Positions 33,802 through 36,126 of a stretch of 46,388 bases of DNA are shown here, piece by piece; position 1 is the first letter of the stretch; each line of letters starts with the position of its first letter. The position numbers and the translations under genes were made by a program. The DNA lies in contig JABLXH010000034.1 of assembly GCA_013178155.1 (NCBI GenBank), forward strand, positions 1 to 46,388. The letters run 5' to 3'. Source of the stretch: Armatimonadota bacterium. Its GTDB lineage: Bacteria; Armatimonadota; Zipacnadia; Zipacnadales; UBA11051. A model generated the notes under the pieces. It saw only the letters and a list, made by a program, of their open reading frames with translations. It was not told the DNA's origin and did no database searches.

Positions 33802-33916
33802 GTGTGGGTGCCTCCTTGAAGCGACCGTTCGGGCCGCGTGTGCTGAGCACTCTCTTTCGCTACGGTCTGGACTCTGCCCTTCTATGGGTTGCCGGCATCC
33901 TTCACCTCGGCGGTGG

Positions 33917-33945
33917 TTGCTGTGCGACGCTATTTCTACTATATT
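33917..33945 (+). promoter_or_regulatory. Possible promoter of the methyltransferase unit
   Basis: TTGCTG at 33917-33922 and TATATT at 33940-33945 are spaced by 17 bp in the 380-bp gap between the divergent aminotransferase and methyltransferase genes. Apart from this and the small ORF that follows, the left 110 bp of that gap shows no feature beyond the aminotransferase ribosome-binding site. Confidence 0.5.
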
Positions 33946-34189
33946 GGCGGTATCCCAACGAAGTTCTGACGATGCTCCCCGTGCATCTACAGTTCACCGG
34001 GAGCAGGCGGAGCGGCTGGCCGAACCGGGCACGCCAGCGGTGCTGGGGCGCGCTGAACGCGGTCGGAGCCTCTTGCACTGCATCAGTTTCGAGACCGTGC
34101 GGCGGTACGGGATCGCAGACGCTACCGTATTCGGCCAGCACTTCGTAGAGCGAGGCTACACCTTGCCGCCCCCCACCAGCCATGCGTAG
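33944..34189 (+). CDS. Small hypothetical protein overlapping the methyltransferase start
   Basis: An ORF of 81 codons whose end overlaps the methyltransferase ATG by 8 bases, as in translationally coupled genes. The central part ([20 protein letters not shown]) and the tail ([20 protein letters not shown]) read like a helical protein with GC-rich third positions. No family is recognised; the tail could be a helix-turn-helix. The start is unclear: TTG 33944 lies inside the proposed -10 box, and no better start is in frame. It may be a remnant or a small regulator. Low certainty. Confidence 0.35.
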
Positions 34190-35246
34190 TAAGCTTCTTC
34201 CCGGCGACTGCCGCGAGATCATGTGGACGCTGCCAGCCGGATGCGCCGACATGATCTTCGCGGACCCTCCCTACAACCTGCAGTTACAGGGCGAGCTGTG
34301 GCGGCCGAACATGACCAAAGTGGACGCCGTGGATGACCATTGGGACCGCTTTGGGCAGGGCGATGAGCGCAGCAGCTTCGCGGCCTATGACGCCTTCACC
34401 GAAGCCTGGCTCACGGCCGCCCGTCACGTCCTATCGGACACGGGCACCATCTGGGTCATTGGTACCTACCACAACATCTACCGCGTCGGGCGGATCATGA
34501 TGGACCTCGGGTACTGGCTCCTCAATGACGTGGTCTGGGTCAAGGCCAACCCCATGCCCAACTTCCGCGGGGTGCGGTTCACCAATGCCCACGAGACGCT
34601 GCTGTGGGCCAAGAAGAGCAAGTCGCAGAAGCGCTACACCTTCAACCACCACACCATGAAGCGGTACAACGCCGGCAAGCAGATGCGCAGCGACTGGGAA
34701 CTGCCGCTGTGCACCGGCGAGGAGCGCCTGACAGTCAACGGCGAGAAGGCGCACACCACGCAGAAGCCCGAGGCCCTGCTGGAGCGCGTCATCGTCGCCA
34801 GCACGCGGGTTGGCGACCTGGTCCTCGACCCCTTCTTCGGGACCGGCACGACCGGCGCGGTGGCCAAGCGGCTGGGGCGAAGGTACCTGGGGATCGAGCG
34901 CGATGCCGCCTACCTGGAACTGGCGCGGAGACGGCTGGCGCGCGTGCGACGGATGCCGGAGGAATGGCTGCTATCCCACACGCAGGACCCCTGCCCGCCG
35001 CCCCGCGTTCCGTTCGCGCGCCTGCTTGAGGCCGGGCTGCTCAAGCCCGGAGACACGCTGAAGCACGTCCGCACCGGCGAGGAGGCAGTGGTCAACGCTG
35101 ACGGCACACTGACGGCACGGGGCCAGACTGGCTCCATTCACCGCCTCGGGGCGTTGCTGCAAGGCACCCCGGCGTGCAACGGGTGGACGGCCTGGCGGAC
35201 GGCGGAGGGAGCGCTGCTGGATGAGCTCCGCCAGATACTGCGATAG
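34182..35246 (+). CDS. CcrM/HinfI-type adenine-N6 DNA methyltransferase
   Basis: A 354-residue beta-class methyltransferase. The catalytic motif IV is [15 protein letters not shown] (DPPY at 28-31), the SAM-binding motif I is [16 protein letters not shown] (216-222), and the family phrases [34 protein letters not shown] and TTQKPEALL follow closely the CcrM and M.HinfI pattern. The C-terminal domain, about residues 275-345, has [16 protein letters not shown] and [19 protein letters not shown], as in CcrM, where it helps to recognise DNA. The target is therefore predicted to be GANTC. It is a plausible epigenetic regulator or part of a restriction system. It converges on the winged-helix gene with 13 bp between stop codons. 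Confidence 0.92.
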
Positions 35247-35259
35247 GGAGCCCACGGGG

Positions 35260-36126
35260 TCACTCCCGTCGCTTCCATACCCACAAGCGCATCTCGGCCC
35301 CTTGTTCTAGCAGCCAGATCTCCTCCTCGTAGTTCACGGTCATCACGACAGCCTTCGCGAAAACGTTGAGGAAGAGCCAACGGATGCGGTTGCGTTCAGC
35401 ATCCGCTAAGGCTCTTGTCGCGTCGTTCACACCGAAATCAAACGTCAGTGCGTCACCCCCATCTGCCACGCGCTGCTCTGTGGCGGAGACACGCATGATG
35501 AACCTGACAACCGCTGTTGTCTCGTCGGCGAGATAGCCTTGTTCGTTCAGCGGTATGCATGCCGCCTCGGACGTGGTCATCAGGTCTCGCATTCGGAAGC
35601 GACCACTGACGTGCGATATAGAGTAGCCCACAAACGCATCGCCCGCCGCTGCCGCAACGCGGGCAAACAGATCGCCATCTTGCTCGCCCTGGTGCCGTTC
35701 GAACTCACGAGCTACAACTTCAGCGCCAAGCTCCCGGAGACGCTGTTCAAGCCTGTCCCTGTAGAAAAGACTGTCCAGGCTCTCGCGCAGTCTGTCCTCG
35801 CGCGTCAGAGGCATCAGGAAGTCGTAGATGATGAGGTCAGGGTAGAGCCATAGCTCGTAGTCGCCAAACAAGCGGTTCGACTGCGAGAACAACCTCGCGT
35901 AGTCATCTCGACGGACCCTTTCGATGACAGGAAGGGCAACCCATCGGCCTCTACCTCTCCTAACAACGAACTCACTCATCCTCTTGCTTATGTTCGTCTT
36001 GGCATTCGTCCTAGTCCATCCCGTTGCGTCCATCAGCTCAGTGAGGCTGAACTCCTCGCCACTTGCCGCGCGCTGGCGTAGGAACTCGTAGGACTGATTG
36101 ACTTGCGCGTAGCTGTCTTGCCGCAT
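35260..36126 (-). CDS. Unrecognised winged-helix protein beside the methyltransferase
   Basis: A 288-residue protein. Residues about 26-66 (FSLTELMDATGWTRTNAKTN and the following SKRMSEFVVRRGRGRWVAL) look like a winged helix-turn-helix. The remaining 220 residues are alpha/beta with an acidic centre and a tryptophan-rich end (EEEIWLLEQGAEMRLWVWKR). No domain is recognised, and no clear PD-(D/E)xK, HNH or PLD nuclease motif is seen. GGGAGGGG lies 5 bases before the ATG at 36126; the longer frame to 36222 runs into the tRNA terminator. Codons are visibly more AT-rich than in neighbours (for example around 35955-36020), which suggests transfer. It could be a restriction partner of the methyltransferase, or a regulator. 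Confidence 0.7.
   Translation of the reverse strand: MRQDSYAQVNQSYEFLRQRAASGEEFSLTELMDATGWTRTNAKTNISKRMSEFVVRRGRGRWVALPVIERVRRDDYARLFSQSNRLFGDYELWLYPDLIIYDFLMPLTREDRLRESLDSLFYRDRLEQRLRELGAEVVAREFERHQGEQDGDLFARVAAAAGDAFVGYSISHVSGRFRMRDLMTTSEAACIPLNEQGYLADETTAVVRFIMRVSATEQRVADGGDALTFDFGVNDATRALADAERNRIRWLFLNVFAKAVVMTVNYEEEIWLLEQGAEMRLWVWKRRE

Follow-up and report, generated by a model that had tools for sequence, protein, structure and literature searches.

To protect themselves, restriction-modification systems depend on SAM, a compound that phages, T3 among them, destroy. To our knowledge, no answer has been given to the question of how a Type II-like locus avoids self-cutting when SAM runs out. 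CcrM of Caulobacter is a solitary cell-cycle enzyme. The combination of a winged helix with a ligand-binding domain is a common plan of regulators. C proteins, RptR and the WYL-type BrxR/CapW bind DNA and, as far as the accessible parts of their descriptions go, have their genes next to those of restriction-modification or defence systems, and RptR appears there as a single-domain helical protein of 79 amino acids linked to Type I systems (PMC12255303). In the heterodimeric type IIS enzyme BtsI, two restriction-related proteins act together, both subunits carrying catalytic parts according to the accessible part of its description. The SAM lyases of phages (T3 gp0.3, Svi3-3) share a ferredoxin/PII-like fold. 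The Svi3-3 enzyme uses Glu69/Ser71, Gly56 and Ser50 at the T-loop and its adjoining strand (PMC7877911). The SAM-AMP lyase of a type III CRISPR system of C. botulinum is also PII-like and belongs to a defence context (PMC12255297). In the accessible part of a survey of BREX systems, the term "SAM lyase" occurs once, and "PII" and "GlnB" never (PMC12839542). A literature search, with subscription journals and preprints mostly outside its scope, found no winged-helix/SAM-lyase-like partner of restriction-modification loci.

Here we describe an unnamed protein of 288 amino acids, P2, which is encoded beside a CcrM-type methyltransferase in a stretch of 46,388 nucleotides from an Armatimonadota bacterium (the window). 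The features of the locus are as follows, with the evidence in brackets.

31507 to 33801, minus strand: two genes on the methyltransferase side, which we take to be a hydrolase-like and a DegT-type aminotransferase gene (homologues in the related genome G001)
34182 to 35246, plus strand: CcrM-type N6-adenine DNA methyltransferase, 354 amino acids (PF01555, PADLOC and 6pbd matches)
35001 to 35240, plus strand: RAMA domain at the methyltransferase C-terminus, residues 274-353 (PF18755, E 7.2e-13)
35260 to 36126, minus strand: P2, the partner of the methyltransferase (open reading frame; homologues found)
35263 to 35844, minus strand: predicted C-terminal PII-like ferredoxin domain of P2, about residues 95-288 (AlphaFold model, fold matches; domain-only model of the relative L068)
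35302 to 35334, minus strand: B-loop and strand beta4 of P2, NYEEEIWLLEQ, residues 265-275 (alignment, column counts)
35497 to 35535, minus strand: T-loop end and strand beta3 of P2, YLADETTAVVRFI, residues 198-210 (alignment, column counts)
35593 to 35634, minus strand: strand beta2 and T-loop start of P2, FVGYSISHVSGRFR, residues 165-178 (alignment, column counts)
35887 to 36126, minus strand: predicted winged-helix DNA-binding domain of P2, about residues 1-80 (AlphaFold model, fold matches)
36173 to 36202, minus strand: terminator-like hairpin with a 13-pair stem between tRNA-Cys and P2 (consensus match only)
36211 to 36807, minus strand: five tRNA genes (Leu, Val, Gly, Gly, Cys) reading towards P2 (ARAGORN, Rfam)
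36820 to 36848, minus strand: sigma-70-like promoter, TTGACA-17-TATATT, before the tRNA array (consensus match only)

The methyltransferase matches N6_N4_Mtase (PF01555) in Pfam at E 9.8e-59, and its RAMA domain (PF18755) scores 48.9 bits against a cut-off of 35.2. The CcrM core and the CcrM-like C-terminal domain, both claimed in the preliminary description, are thus recovered as significant matches. DPPY occupies residues 28-31 and FFGTG comes later, which is the beta-class order. The protein matches the PADLOC orphan-MTase model at E 7.1e-150, the PADLOC type II MTase model at E 8.7e-150 and the Caulobacter CcrM structure 6pbd at E 9.4e-134, and the catalytic core and RAMA domain of Caulobacter CcrM align with it over residues 5-344. 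However, its score of 518.7 bits stays below the NCBIfam CcrM equivalog cut-off of 830 bits, and it is adjoined by a partner gene. Judged by its sequence, it is a CcrM-like enzyme and not the Caulobacter equivalog. Its target is probably GANTC. The observed/expected ratio of GANTC in 146 kb of the source genome is 0.54, which is weak evidence because TCNGA is as depleted (0.48). The GANTC ratio ranges from 0.58 to 0.83 in four other genomes with CcrM-RAMA genes and is 0.95 in L056, which shows no depletion. Since TCNGA is equally low and L056 undepleted, GANTC depletion was rejected as proof of GANTC methylation. In the methyltransferase tree, from which rows G098 and G066 were left out because their methyltransferases were not located, the window enzyme clusters with same-family CcrMs without P2. 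The two genes are therefore not strictly co-evolving, and strict co-evolution was discarded as an account of the pair.

P2 and the methyltransferase gene converge, and the coordinates agree with the 13 bp described between their stops. The partner had also been called richer in AT codons, and among 20 window genes measured it does have the lowest GC3, 0.689 against 0.775-0.892 for the remaining 19. Its description as a protein without a known domain stands as well. The best Pfam match has an E-value of 0.13 and the best PHROG match 0.19, neither of them significant; PADLOC and NCBIfam gave no match up to E 1, and PDB sequences none up to E 10. With no significant match in these five collections, the idea that P2 is a restriction enzyme, DUF or phage protein already on record was rejected. 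Five further family members gave no significant match in the family libraries either, the one sub-threshold Pfam match being EAD1 at E 0.017. No significant homologue of P2 was found in plasmids, phages and viral contigs, the viral contigs having been scanned twice.

The predicted structure of P2 joins a winged helix to a domain of PII-like fold, for which SAM and SAM-AMP lyases are the nearest matches by a narrow margin. The models are monomer predictions. The whole-protein AlphaFold model has a pLDDT of 86, and structure comparison places CymR, IscR and MarR folds on about residues 1-80, consistent with the winged helix of the preliminary description. The winged-helix module is also present in DUF3644 proteins and is common to P0010 and L123. 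In Foldseek, the top rows for the whole model are IclR-type regulators. For the C-terminal domain of the whole model, the best match is the phage SAM lyase 6zm9 (Z 8.3, 118 residues, rmsd 3.8), and the SAM lyase 6znb has Z 8.2. In the same comparison, 9gad (Z 6.7) and 9lqd (Z 6.5) stand under PII rows, PII-type proteins reaching 7.2. A model of the domain alone, from L068, gives the SAM-AMP lyase 9gab as Foldseek rank 1 (E 2.2e-3), and nothing reaches E 1e-3 in Foldseek with either the P2 or the L068 model. The structural aligner places the SAM-AMP lyase 9gad (Z 8.1, 116 residues, rmsd 3.2), the SAM lyase 9lqd (Z 7.9, 111 residues, rmsd 3.0) and 9gab (Z 7.8, 117 residues, rmsd 3.5) first to third for this domain model, PII-type proteins having Z 7.6; 6zm9, and with it Svi3-3, is absent among the best 50 matches listed. 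Thus the nearest lyase is a SAM lyase for the whole P2 model and a SAM-AMP lyase for the L068 domain model, with small margins over PII, and unrelated ferredoxin folds can reach Z near 8. A profile comparison of P2 with 11 T3-type SAM lyases by hhalign gives E 0.12, with a score that 9 of 200 column shuffles also reach. In a viral structure library, the top match, at E 3e-3, is to a protein of Xanthomonas phage f30-Xaj that has not been characterised. PD-(D/E)XK has no profile match in P2 and is absent among the fold matches listed.

Conserved residues of the P2 family fall on the putative ligand site. Glu202 and Thr204 are present in 20 of 20 members, Gly175 in 19 of 19 and Tyr168-Ser169 in 18 of 18. 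Placed by topology, Glu202 at the T-loop end would take the position of the key Glu of the lyases (Glu69/Glu71). In the same way, Glu202/Thr204 would correspond to Glu69/Ser71 of Svi3-3, and Gly175-x-Phe177 to Gly56-x-Tyr58 of SAM lyases. P2 would thus resemble the phage SAM lyases in its predicted fold, in G-x-[FY] at the T-loop start and in Glu-x-Thr/Ser at the T-loop end. However, it carries a predicted N-terminal winged helix, belongs to bacterial loci and has no significant sequence similarity to them. At the position of Tyr58, 14 of 19 members have Phe, and the B-loop Gln of the lyases (Gln104/Gln108) is replaced by Glu (E267) in 18 of 20, the window protein included. Among the 20 rows, Gln at position 267 occurs only in L055 and L056, two Anaerolineaceae members linked to CcrM.

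The family is rare, patchy and unnamed, with 29 loci in at least nine phyla; L052 and L069 are identical and L042 overlaps L054, each pair being counted once, and L053 (G141) stands outside the count because it has only the winged helix in common with P2. An adenine-methyltransferase gene lies within 3 kb of P2 in 17 loci (4 CcrM-type, 12 Dam/D12-type and 1 other), three loci have a nuclease gene only, and nine have neither neighbour, five of these nine being contig ends, fragments or loci with a short flank. These classes are not independent of a first inspection by eye, since the neighbour queries were drawn from the P2 loci themselves. All D12, CcrM and beta-MTase matches in 439,802 bases (tblastn, E up to 1e-4) lie within about 3.1 kb of P2. 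A restriction-nuclease-like gene is present in 11 of the 12 D12 loci and in none of the four CcrM loci. No restriction-endonuclease gene is recognised beside the window methyltransferase, and P2 itself has no restriction-endonuclease match. The P2 family is therefore associated with adenine methyltransferases from different classes, and a restriction-nuclease-like gene is often present as well. The outcome that the preliminary description named as refuting its idea, homologues of P2 mostly lacking the methyltransferase, is not seen when methyltransferases of all types are counted. A pairing tied to GANTC is nevertheless not general, because only 4 of 29 loci are CcrM-type and most others are Dam/D12-type. 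The interpretation given in that description, a module of restriction or epigenetic type whose partner protein is of a new kind, survives in outline, a methyltransferase and/or nuclease neighbour being found in 20 of 29 loci. In a P2 tree of 21 rows, from which the fragments and broken copies L066, L069, L072, L073, L074 and L076-L078 were left out, the rows linked to CcrM fall together in a single group that spans two phyla (support 91/90), and such clustering is matched in 2 of 500 label shuffles. Among 291 genomes of the phylum, four of five PDDEXK_11 loci consist of a methyltransferase and a nuclease without P2; the single PDDEXK_11 of the source genome lies on another contig beside another methyltransferase. 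Because methyltransferase-nuclease pairs also occur without P2, P2 is optional.

We tentatively favour, with a probability of about 0.38, a model in which P2 is an optional ligand-sensing DNA-binding partner that ties adenine-methylation and restriction modules to the SAM supply. The predicted SAM-binding-like fold, together with relatives mostly in restriction-modification loci, suggests that P2 senses SAM for these systems. The pair would form an adenine-methylation module of a CcrM-type methyltransferase and an accessory DNA-binding P2, which would sense a ligand through its PII/SAM-lyase-like domain. This domain, as a trimer, may bind SAM, SAH or a SAM-derived nucleotide. Ligand binding would alter DNA binding by the winged helices, and expression or action of the methyltransferase and restriction genes would thereby follow the methyl-donor supply. 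For example, P2 may restrain restriction while SAM is scarce and freshly made DNA stays unmethylated. Because no restriction gene is recognised beside the pair, the window module itself would be epigenetic or regulatory. Inspection of 13 upstream stretches of P2 genes revealed no common palindrome that could serve as a shared operator. P2, an optional third gene in many phyla without a counterpart in the defence and protein-family libraries consulted here, is thus a testable candidate for the avoidance of self-cutting at SAM loss. A narrower version, in which a SAM-lyase-fold domain joined to a winged helix has been turned from a SAM-destroying phage-type enzyme into a sensor of SAM or a SAM-derived signal for restriction-modification loci, is somewhat doubtful. 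If it is true, restriction-modification loci would be told whether the cell can still methylate DNA, and phages attacking SAM to beat restriction would be sensed by a relative of their own weapon.

The ligand may be another one. Within 1-2 Z units, a large share of the listed matches are proteins of PII and CutA type, the nearest lyase differs by model, two lyases stand under PII rows for the whole model, the profile link is not significant and the lyase Gln and mostly also Tyr are replaced. These points would agree with a PII-like ferredoxin sensor of a nucleotide, amino acid or second messenger whose likeness to lyases is a shared fold only. However, the first match of the C-terminal domain is a SAM or SAM-AMP lyase in both models, Glu202/Thr204 take the places of Glu69/Ser71 by topology and P2 genes are linked to those of enzymes that use SAM, so that such a sensor appears somewhat unlikely. 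The same lyase matches and the invariant key Glu raise the question of whether P2 actively cleaves SAM or a SAM-derived signal as a lyase, serving as an infection effector that lowers SAM, with the methyltransferase as a toxin-antitoxin-like counterpart. Replacement of Tyr58 by Phe in Svi3-3 leaves a fifth of the activity and destabilises the trimer (PMC7877911), and a DarT gene (PF14487) lies beside P2 in one locus. The change of the conserved Gln to Glu in 18 of 20 members and the lack of a significant sequence link argue against catalysis, as does the tight control that SAM destruction beside SAM-using enzymes would need, of which there is no sign; an active lyase is quite improbable. The SAM-AMP lyase, the top match of the domain model, reaches only Z 6.7 with the whole model, and no CRISPR or CorA gene was noticed in passing among the neighbours of P2.

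It is also conceivable that P2 is not a transcription regulator but a subunit of the restriction machinery, either targeting or SAM-dependent activating, and the restriction effector itself in two-gene CcrM loci. A convergent arrangement is usual for restriction and modification pairs, and the layout of P2 and the methyltransferase fits it. P2 genes abut or overlap methyltransferase or nuclease genes on the same strand in L055, L056, L059, L068 and L074. In two relatives, L012 and L017, a REase_II gene takes the slot of P2 beside a CcrM-type methyltransferase, with matches to the type II restriction-enzyme model PDLC03487 at E 3.8e-45 and 9.7e-42. However, P2 has no nuclease signature by sequence, unlike BtsI with its two catalytic subunits, and its predicted fold is PII-like. 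Moreover, nearly all D12 loci already hold a restriction-nuclease-like gene, and other genomes have methyltransferase-nuclease pairs without P2. A restriction subunit is therefore unlikely. C proteins are small, of HTH_3 type and encoded upstream of the restriction-endonuclease gene. P2, with 288 amino acids and a predicted winged helix but without a match to an HTH family, does not answer to this description either, and no restriction-endonuclease gene is recognised beside it in the window. Its predicted two-domain architecture differs from the single domain of RptR. The nine loci without a methyltransferase or nuclease neighbour and a few with DarT and HNH-like neighbours would suit a hitch-hiker of defence islands that is found next to methyltransferases but does not function with them. 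The overlap of the P2 gene with the methyltransferase gene in L055 and L056, the tight gene clusters and the retention of the pair in two genera make this very improbable.

Among the surroundings of the pair, the promoter, the small open reading frame and the tRNA integration of the preliminary description were not confirmed. A simple consensus scan of 33700-36900 detects no promoter before the methyltransferase, said to have its own, and the sole sigma-70-like site precedes the tRNA array. The small open reading frame overlapping the methyltransferase ATG (33902-34252, minus strand) has no family match up to E 1 and is not picked by the gene caller. It is unremarkable because the window, read in all six frames, contains 85 ATG open reading frames of at least 116 amino acids (1.83 per kb), a count that takes in the real genes. 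The block does adjoin tRNA-Cys, the closest of the five tRNAs (36211-36286, 84 bp from the P2 start). However, the proposed use of this tRNA as an integration site is not borne out: no tRNA-derived direct repeat flanks the block, and no tRNA was found in 18 kb scanned near the P2 and CcrM genes of G001, which belongs to another genus of the same family. In 24 further P2 loci, one tRNA and one tmRNA were found, both more than 3 kb away, and a scan of eight stretches located two tRNAs about 2.3 kb from P2 in L051. The tRNA neighbourhood thus looks incidental. P2 of G001 is 63% identical to that of the window and is likewise convergent with a CcrM gene. On the CcrM side, G001 has homologues of the DegT-type gene (86% over 414 amino acids) and of the hydrolase-like gene (55% over 225 amino acids), with one extra gene between them and the CcrM-P2 block.

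The genome holding the window comprises 5.53 Mb in 211 contigs, and the window is its contig C140. The two convergent genes are as follows:

34182-35246, + strand: CcrM-type adenine methyltransferase with RAMA domain, 354 aa (sequence library matches)
35260-36126, - strand: P2 open reading frame, 288 aa, its end 13 bp from the methyltransferase end

The assignment of the methyltransferase and the convergent arrangement thus agree with the preliminary description, as do two further points: the GC3 of P2 (0.689) is the lowest among 20 window genes measured (others, 0.775-0.892), and P2 is unnamed by Pfam, NCBIfam, PHROGs, PADLOC and PDB sequence searches. 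The methyltransferase had also been credited with its own promoter, but a consensus scan finds no promoter-like site upstream of it. The small ORF over its start carries little meaning because ORFs of such length are frequent in this GC-rich window. The tRNA array has its own promoter-like and terminator-like sites by consensus scan. By eye, a partial copy of the tRNA-Val sequence, ctccgagctaaccgcccg, lies at 36690-36708 between tRNA-Val and tRNA-Leu.

The predicted structure of window P2 (20-row alignment; pLDDT 86.3, pTM 0.71) contains the winged helix proposed earlier together with a ferredoxin-like domain in which additional helices follow alpha1. Foldseek gives no PDB match with E <1e-3 for this model; its top rows are IclR-type regulators, and the SAM-AMP lyase 9gad is at rank 9 (E 0.044). 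By the aligner, the C-domain best matches the phage SAM lyase 6zm9 (Z 8.3, 118 residues, rmsd 3.8) and 6znb (Z 8.2, 114 residues, rmsd 3.1), followed by designed ferredoxin and PII folds at 7.2, 9gad at 6.7 and the SAM lyase 9lqd at 6.5. For a second model, made from the C-domain alone of another P2 locus, L068 (pLDDT 87.8), Foldseek ranks the SAM-AMP lyase 9gab first (E 2.2e-3, probability 0.95), closely followed by further ferredoxin-type entries, ribosomal ones included. The aligner places 9gad (8.1), 9lqd (7.9) and 9gab (7.8) before one PII and one DUF3240 protein (both 7.6); 6zm9 is at Foldseek rank 18 and is not among the best 50 aligner matches listed. Because the lyases lead by less than 1 Z unit in the L068 model and by about 1 in the window P2 model, the safe claim is that the modelled C-domain belongs to the PII/GlnB-like superfamily, and the models lean toward SAM/SAM-AMP lyases as its nearest relatives.

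The SAM site of the lyase Svi3-3 is described at the subunit interface, with Glu69, Ser71, Gly56, Tyr58, Ser50, Gln104 and Glu105; E69Q lowers activity 4500-fold and Y58F fivefold (PMC7877911). The SAM-AMP lyase has Glu71 at the T-loop end and Gln108 in the B-loop (PMC12255297). Placed by topology, the corresponding P2 residues are E202 (20/20), T204 (20/20), G175 (19/19), F177 (14/19, Tyr in 5/19) and Y168-S169 (18/18), and E267 stands at the B-loop place (18/20; Gln in L055 and L056). A P2 profile compared with 11 T3-type lyases gives E 0.12, the best alignment matching up the GRFR and GCYR stretches, and 9 of 200 shuffled profiles score as well.

Neighboring genes were counted in 29 P2 loci: the window, L041 (genome G001, another genus of the same family), L043 (G079), L051 (G248) and 25 from the one-per-species scan. 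An adenine methyltransferase gene lies within 3 kb of P2 in 17 of them.

Genes near P2 in the 29 loci
CcrM-type methyltransferase: window, L041, L055, L056
D12-type methyltransferase: L043, L057, L058, L059, L060, L062, L064, L066, L068, L072, L074, L078
Other beta-class methyltransferase (PF01555, DPPY): L061
Nuclease gene, no methyltransferase: L063, L069, L070
Neither (L065, L073 and L076 at contig ends; L077 a fragment; L067 with <2 kb on one side): L051, L054, L065, L067, L071, L073, L075, L076, L077

P2 itself is broken or cut in L066, L072 and L074. In 11 of the 12 D12 loci there is also a match to a PDDEXK_11-type gene (PF20472) or, in L064, to a DUF6996/6997/7226 type II restriction-enzyme gene, L078 being cut; a short piece resembling PDDEXK_11 is present in L061. 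Neither type is matched in the four CcrM-linked loci. Searches of G001 and of the genomes carrying L055 and L056 gave no PF20472 gene; the window's genome has one, on contig C2, adjoining a different methyltransferase. PF20472 occurs in 5 of 291 genomes of the phylum, and 4 of these 5 loci are methyltransferase-nuclease pairs without P2. Therefore, P2 is an optional third component.

Since P2 combines a predicted DNA-binding head with a PII-like body, is optional and accompanies adenine methyltransferases of several classes, all of them SAM users, it is a better candidate for a regulator or switch that would read SAM supply than for a nuclease. The winged helix is also fused to DUF3644 in other genomes. 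In a survey of HEPN proteins, DUF3644 is classed as a HEPN domain, and a family overlapping with DUF3644 is listed as fused to winged-helix and REase domains and present in restriction-modification operons (PMC3710099). These observations fit a defence-related head for P2.

Several other features of these loci were noted. The C2 pair (29242-30503; L115:3243-4504) is a second RM-like pair, in which a DPPY-type methyltransferase gene overlaps the PDDEXK_11 nuclease gene without P2. The L064 cluster (4765-8846) comprises the D12 methyltransferase, the restriction-enzyme gene, P2 and a further DPPY-type methyltransferase. An unnamed protein of ~110-130 aa with a recurring RR(N/D)WW or RRNWA motif is encoded at L059:8847-9242, L068:8790-9185 and L061:3834-4163, and the motif domain is fused to the D12 methyltransferase C-terminus in L060 and L062; scans of two such proteins with Pfam and of one with PADLOC gave no match. 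Long genes with a SAM-methyltransferase domain and an HNH-like end adjoin P2 in two phyla (L060:6069-7844, L071:9026-10699); HNH_4 is above cut-off in L071 only, and the L060 gene weakly matches PADLOC mads_2. In a Myxococcales bin (L067:8954-10656), a DarT gene (PF14487) and what we read as a DarG-like macro-domain gene lie downstream of P2.

P2 is rare and scattered. It is present in 4 of 101 genomes (100 relatives and its own), and a four-row profile search finds it in 7 of the 291 genomes searched from the phylum, G141 matching in the winged helix only and G112 only from the middle onward. A six-row profile on the one-per-species collection gave 38 candidate stretches and 25 P2 loci, a scan that depends on exact matches to two peptide patterns and overlooks divergent members. 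The record titles name Chloroflexi and Thermomicrobiales, Deltaproteobacteria/Myxococcales, Gammaproteobacteria, Verrucomicrobiota, Acidobacteria, Gracilibacteria, Lokiarchaeota, Bacteroidetes and Armatimonadota, the last including the relative L054 (Candidatus Zipacnadia); most are bins with possible contamination, but L065 comes from a named strain, Colwellia psychrerythraea ND2E. In a set of 400 genomes from the phylum to which L055 belongs, full-length P2 is found solely in the centre genome itself, and 8 others match in the winged helix alone. Searches of phages, plasmids and viral contigs did not find P2.

CcrM-linked P2 rows form one group spanning Armatimonadota and Chloroflexota (support 91/90), among which the unpaired L054 and G248 fall. 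CcrM linkage requires one change on the P2 tree in 200 of 200 bootstrap trees, and 2 of 500 label shuffles are as low. On the methyltransferase tree, P2-linked enzymes require two changes; the window enzyme groups with CcrMs of its own family (G003, G004, G006 and a truncated copy in G001; 100/98), and G003, G004 and G006 have CcrM without P2. A REase_II-type gene occupies the position beside CcrM in G003 and G016, with a similar arrangement by eye in G020 and in a piece of G023. In related genomes, CcrM-RAMA genes adjoin a gene for a ~234-244-aa protein that carries a VEIKDG/IELKDG motif (L012:1562-2296, L017:2568-3272, L018:776-1480 and L031:2-301, the last a piece only). The two of four scanned (L012, L017) match PADLOC REase_II PDLC03487 and have no Pfam match; these are possibly HinfI-like pairs in the phylum.

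The tRNA neighbourhood had suggested integration. From the methyltransferase side, the window reads hydrolase-like gene, DegT-type gene, CcrM and P2 (the first two names are our own reading), and G001 reads hydrolase-like gene, DegT-type gene, an extra gene, truncated CcrM, second CcrM and P2, with P2 convergent with the adjoining CcrM in both. Because of this shared order, the block looks inherited within the family rather than freshly inserted at a tRNA; comparison of the window with G001 found no synteny on the tRNA side. The truncated copy (L041:9897-10514; 205 aa, ~81-84% identical to the window methyltransferase) adjoins the intact second CcrM.

GANTC depletion lends weak support to GANTC methylation. 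By a second-order Markov model, observed/expected GANTC is 0.54 in the window's genome (146 kb) and 0.37 in G001 (40 kb), against 0.68-0.92 in 20-40 kb of five genomes lacking a close CcrM match. In several genomes, however, TCNGA is depleted to about the same degree, and GANTC values are 0.95 for L056, 0.44 for L055 and 0.57 for G027. In 20 kb of the relative G086 (L111), GATC and GGNCC are strongly depleted (0.28 and 0.24, respectively).
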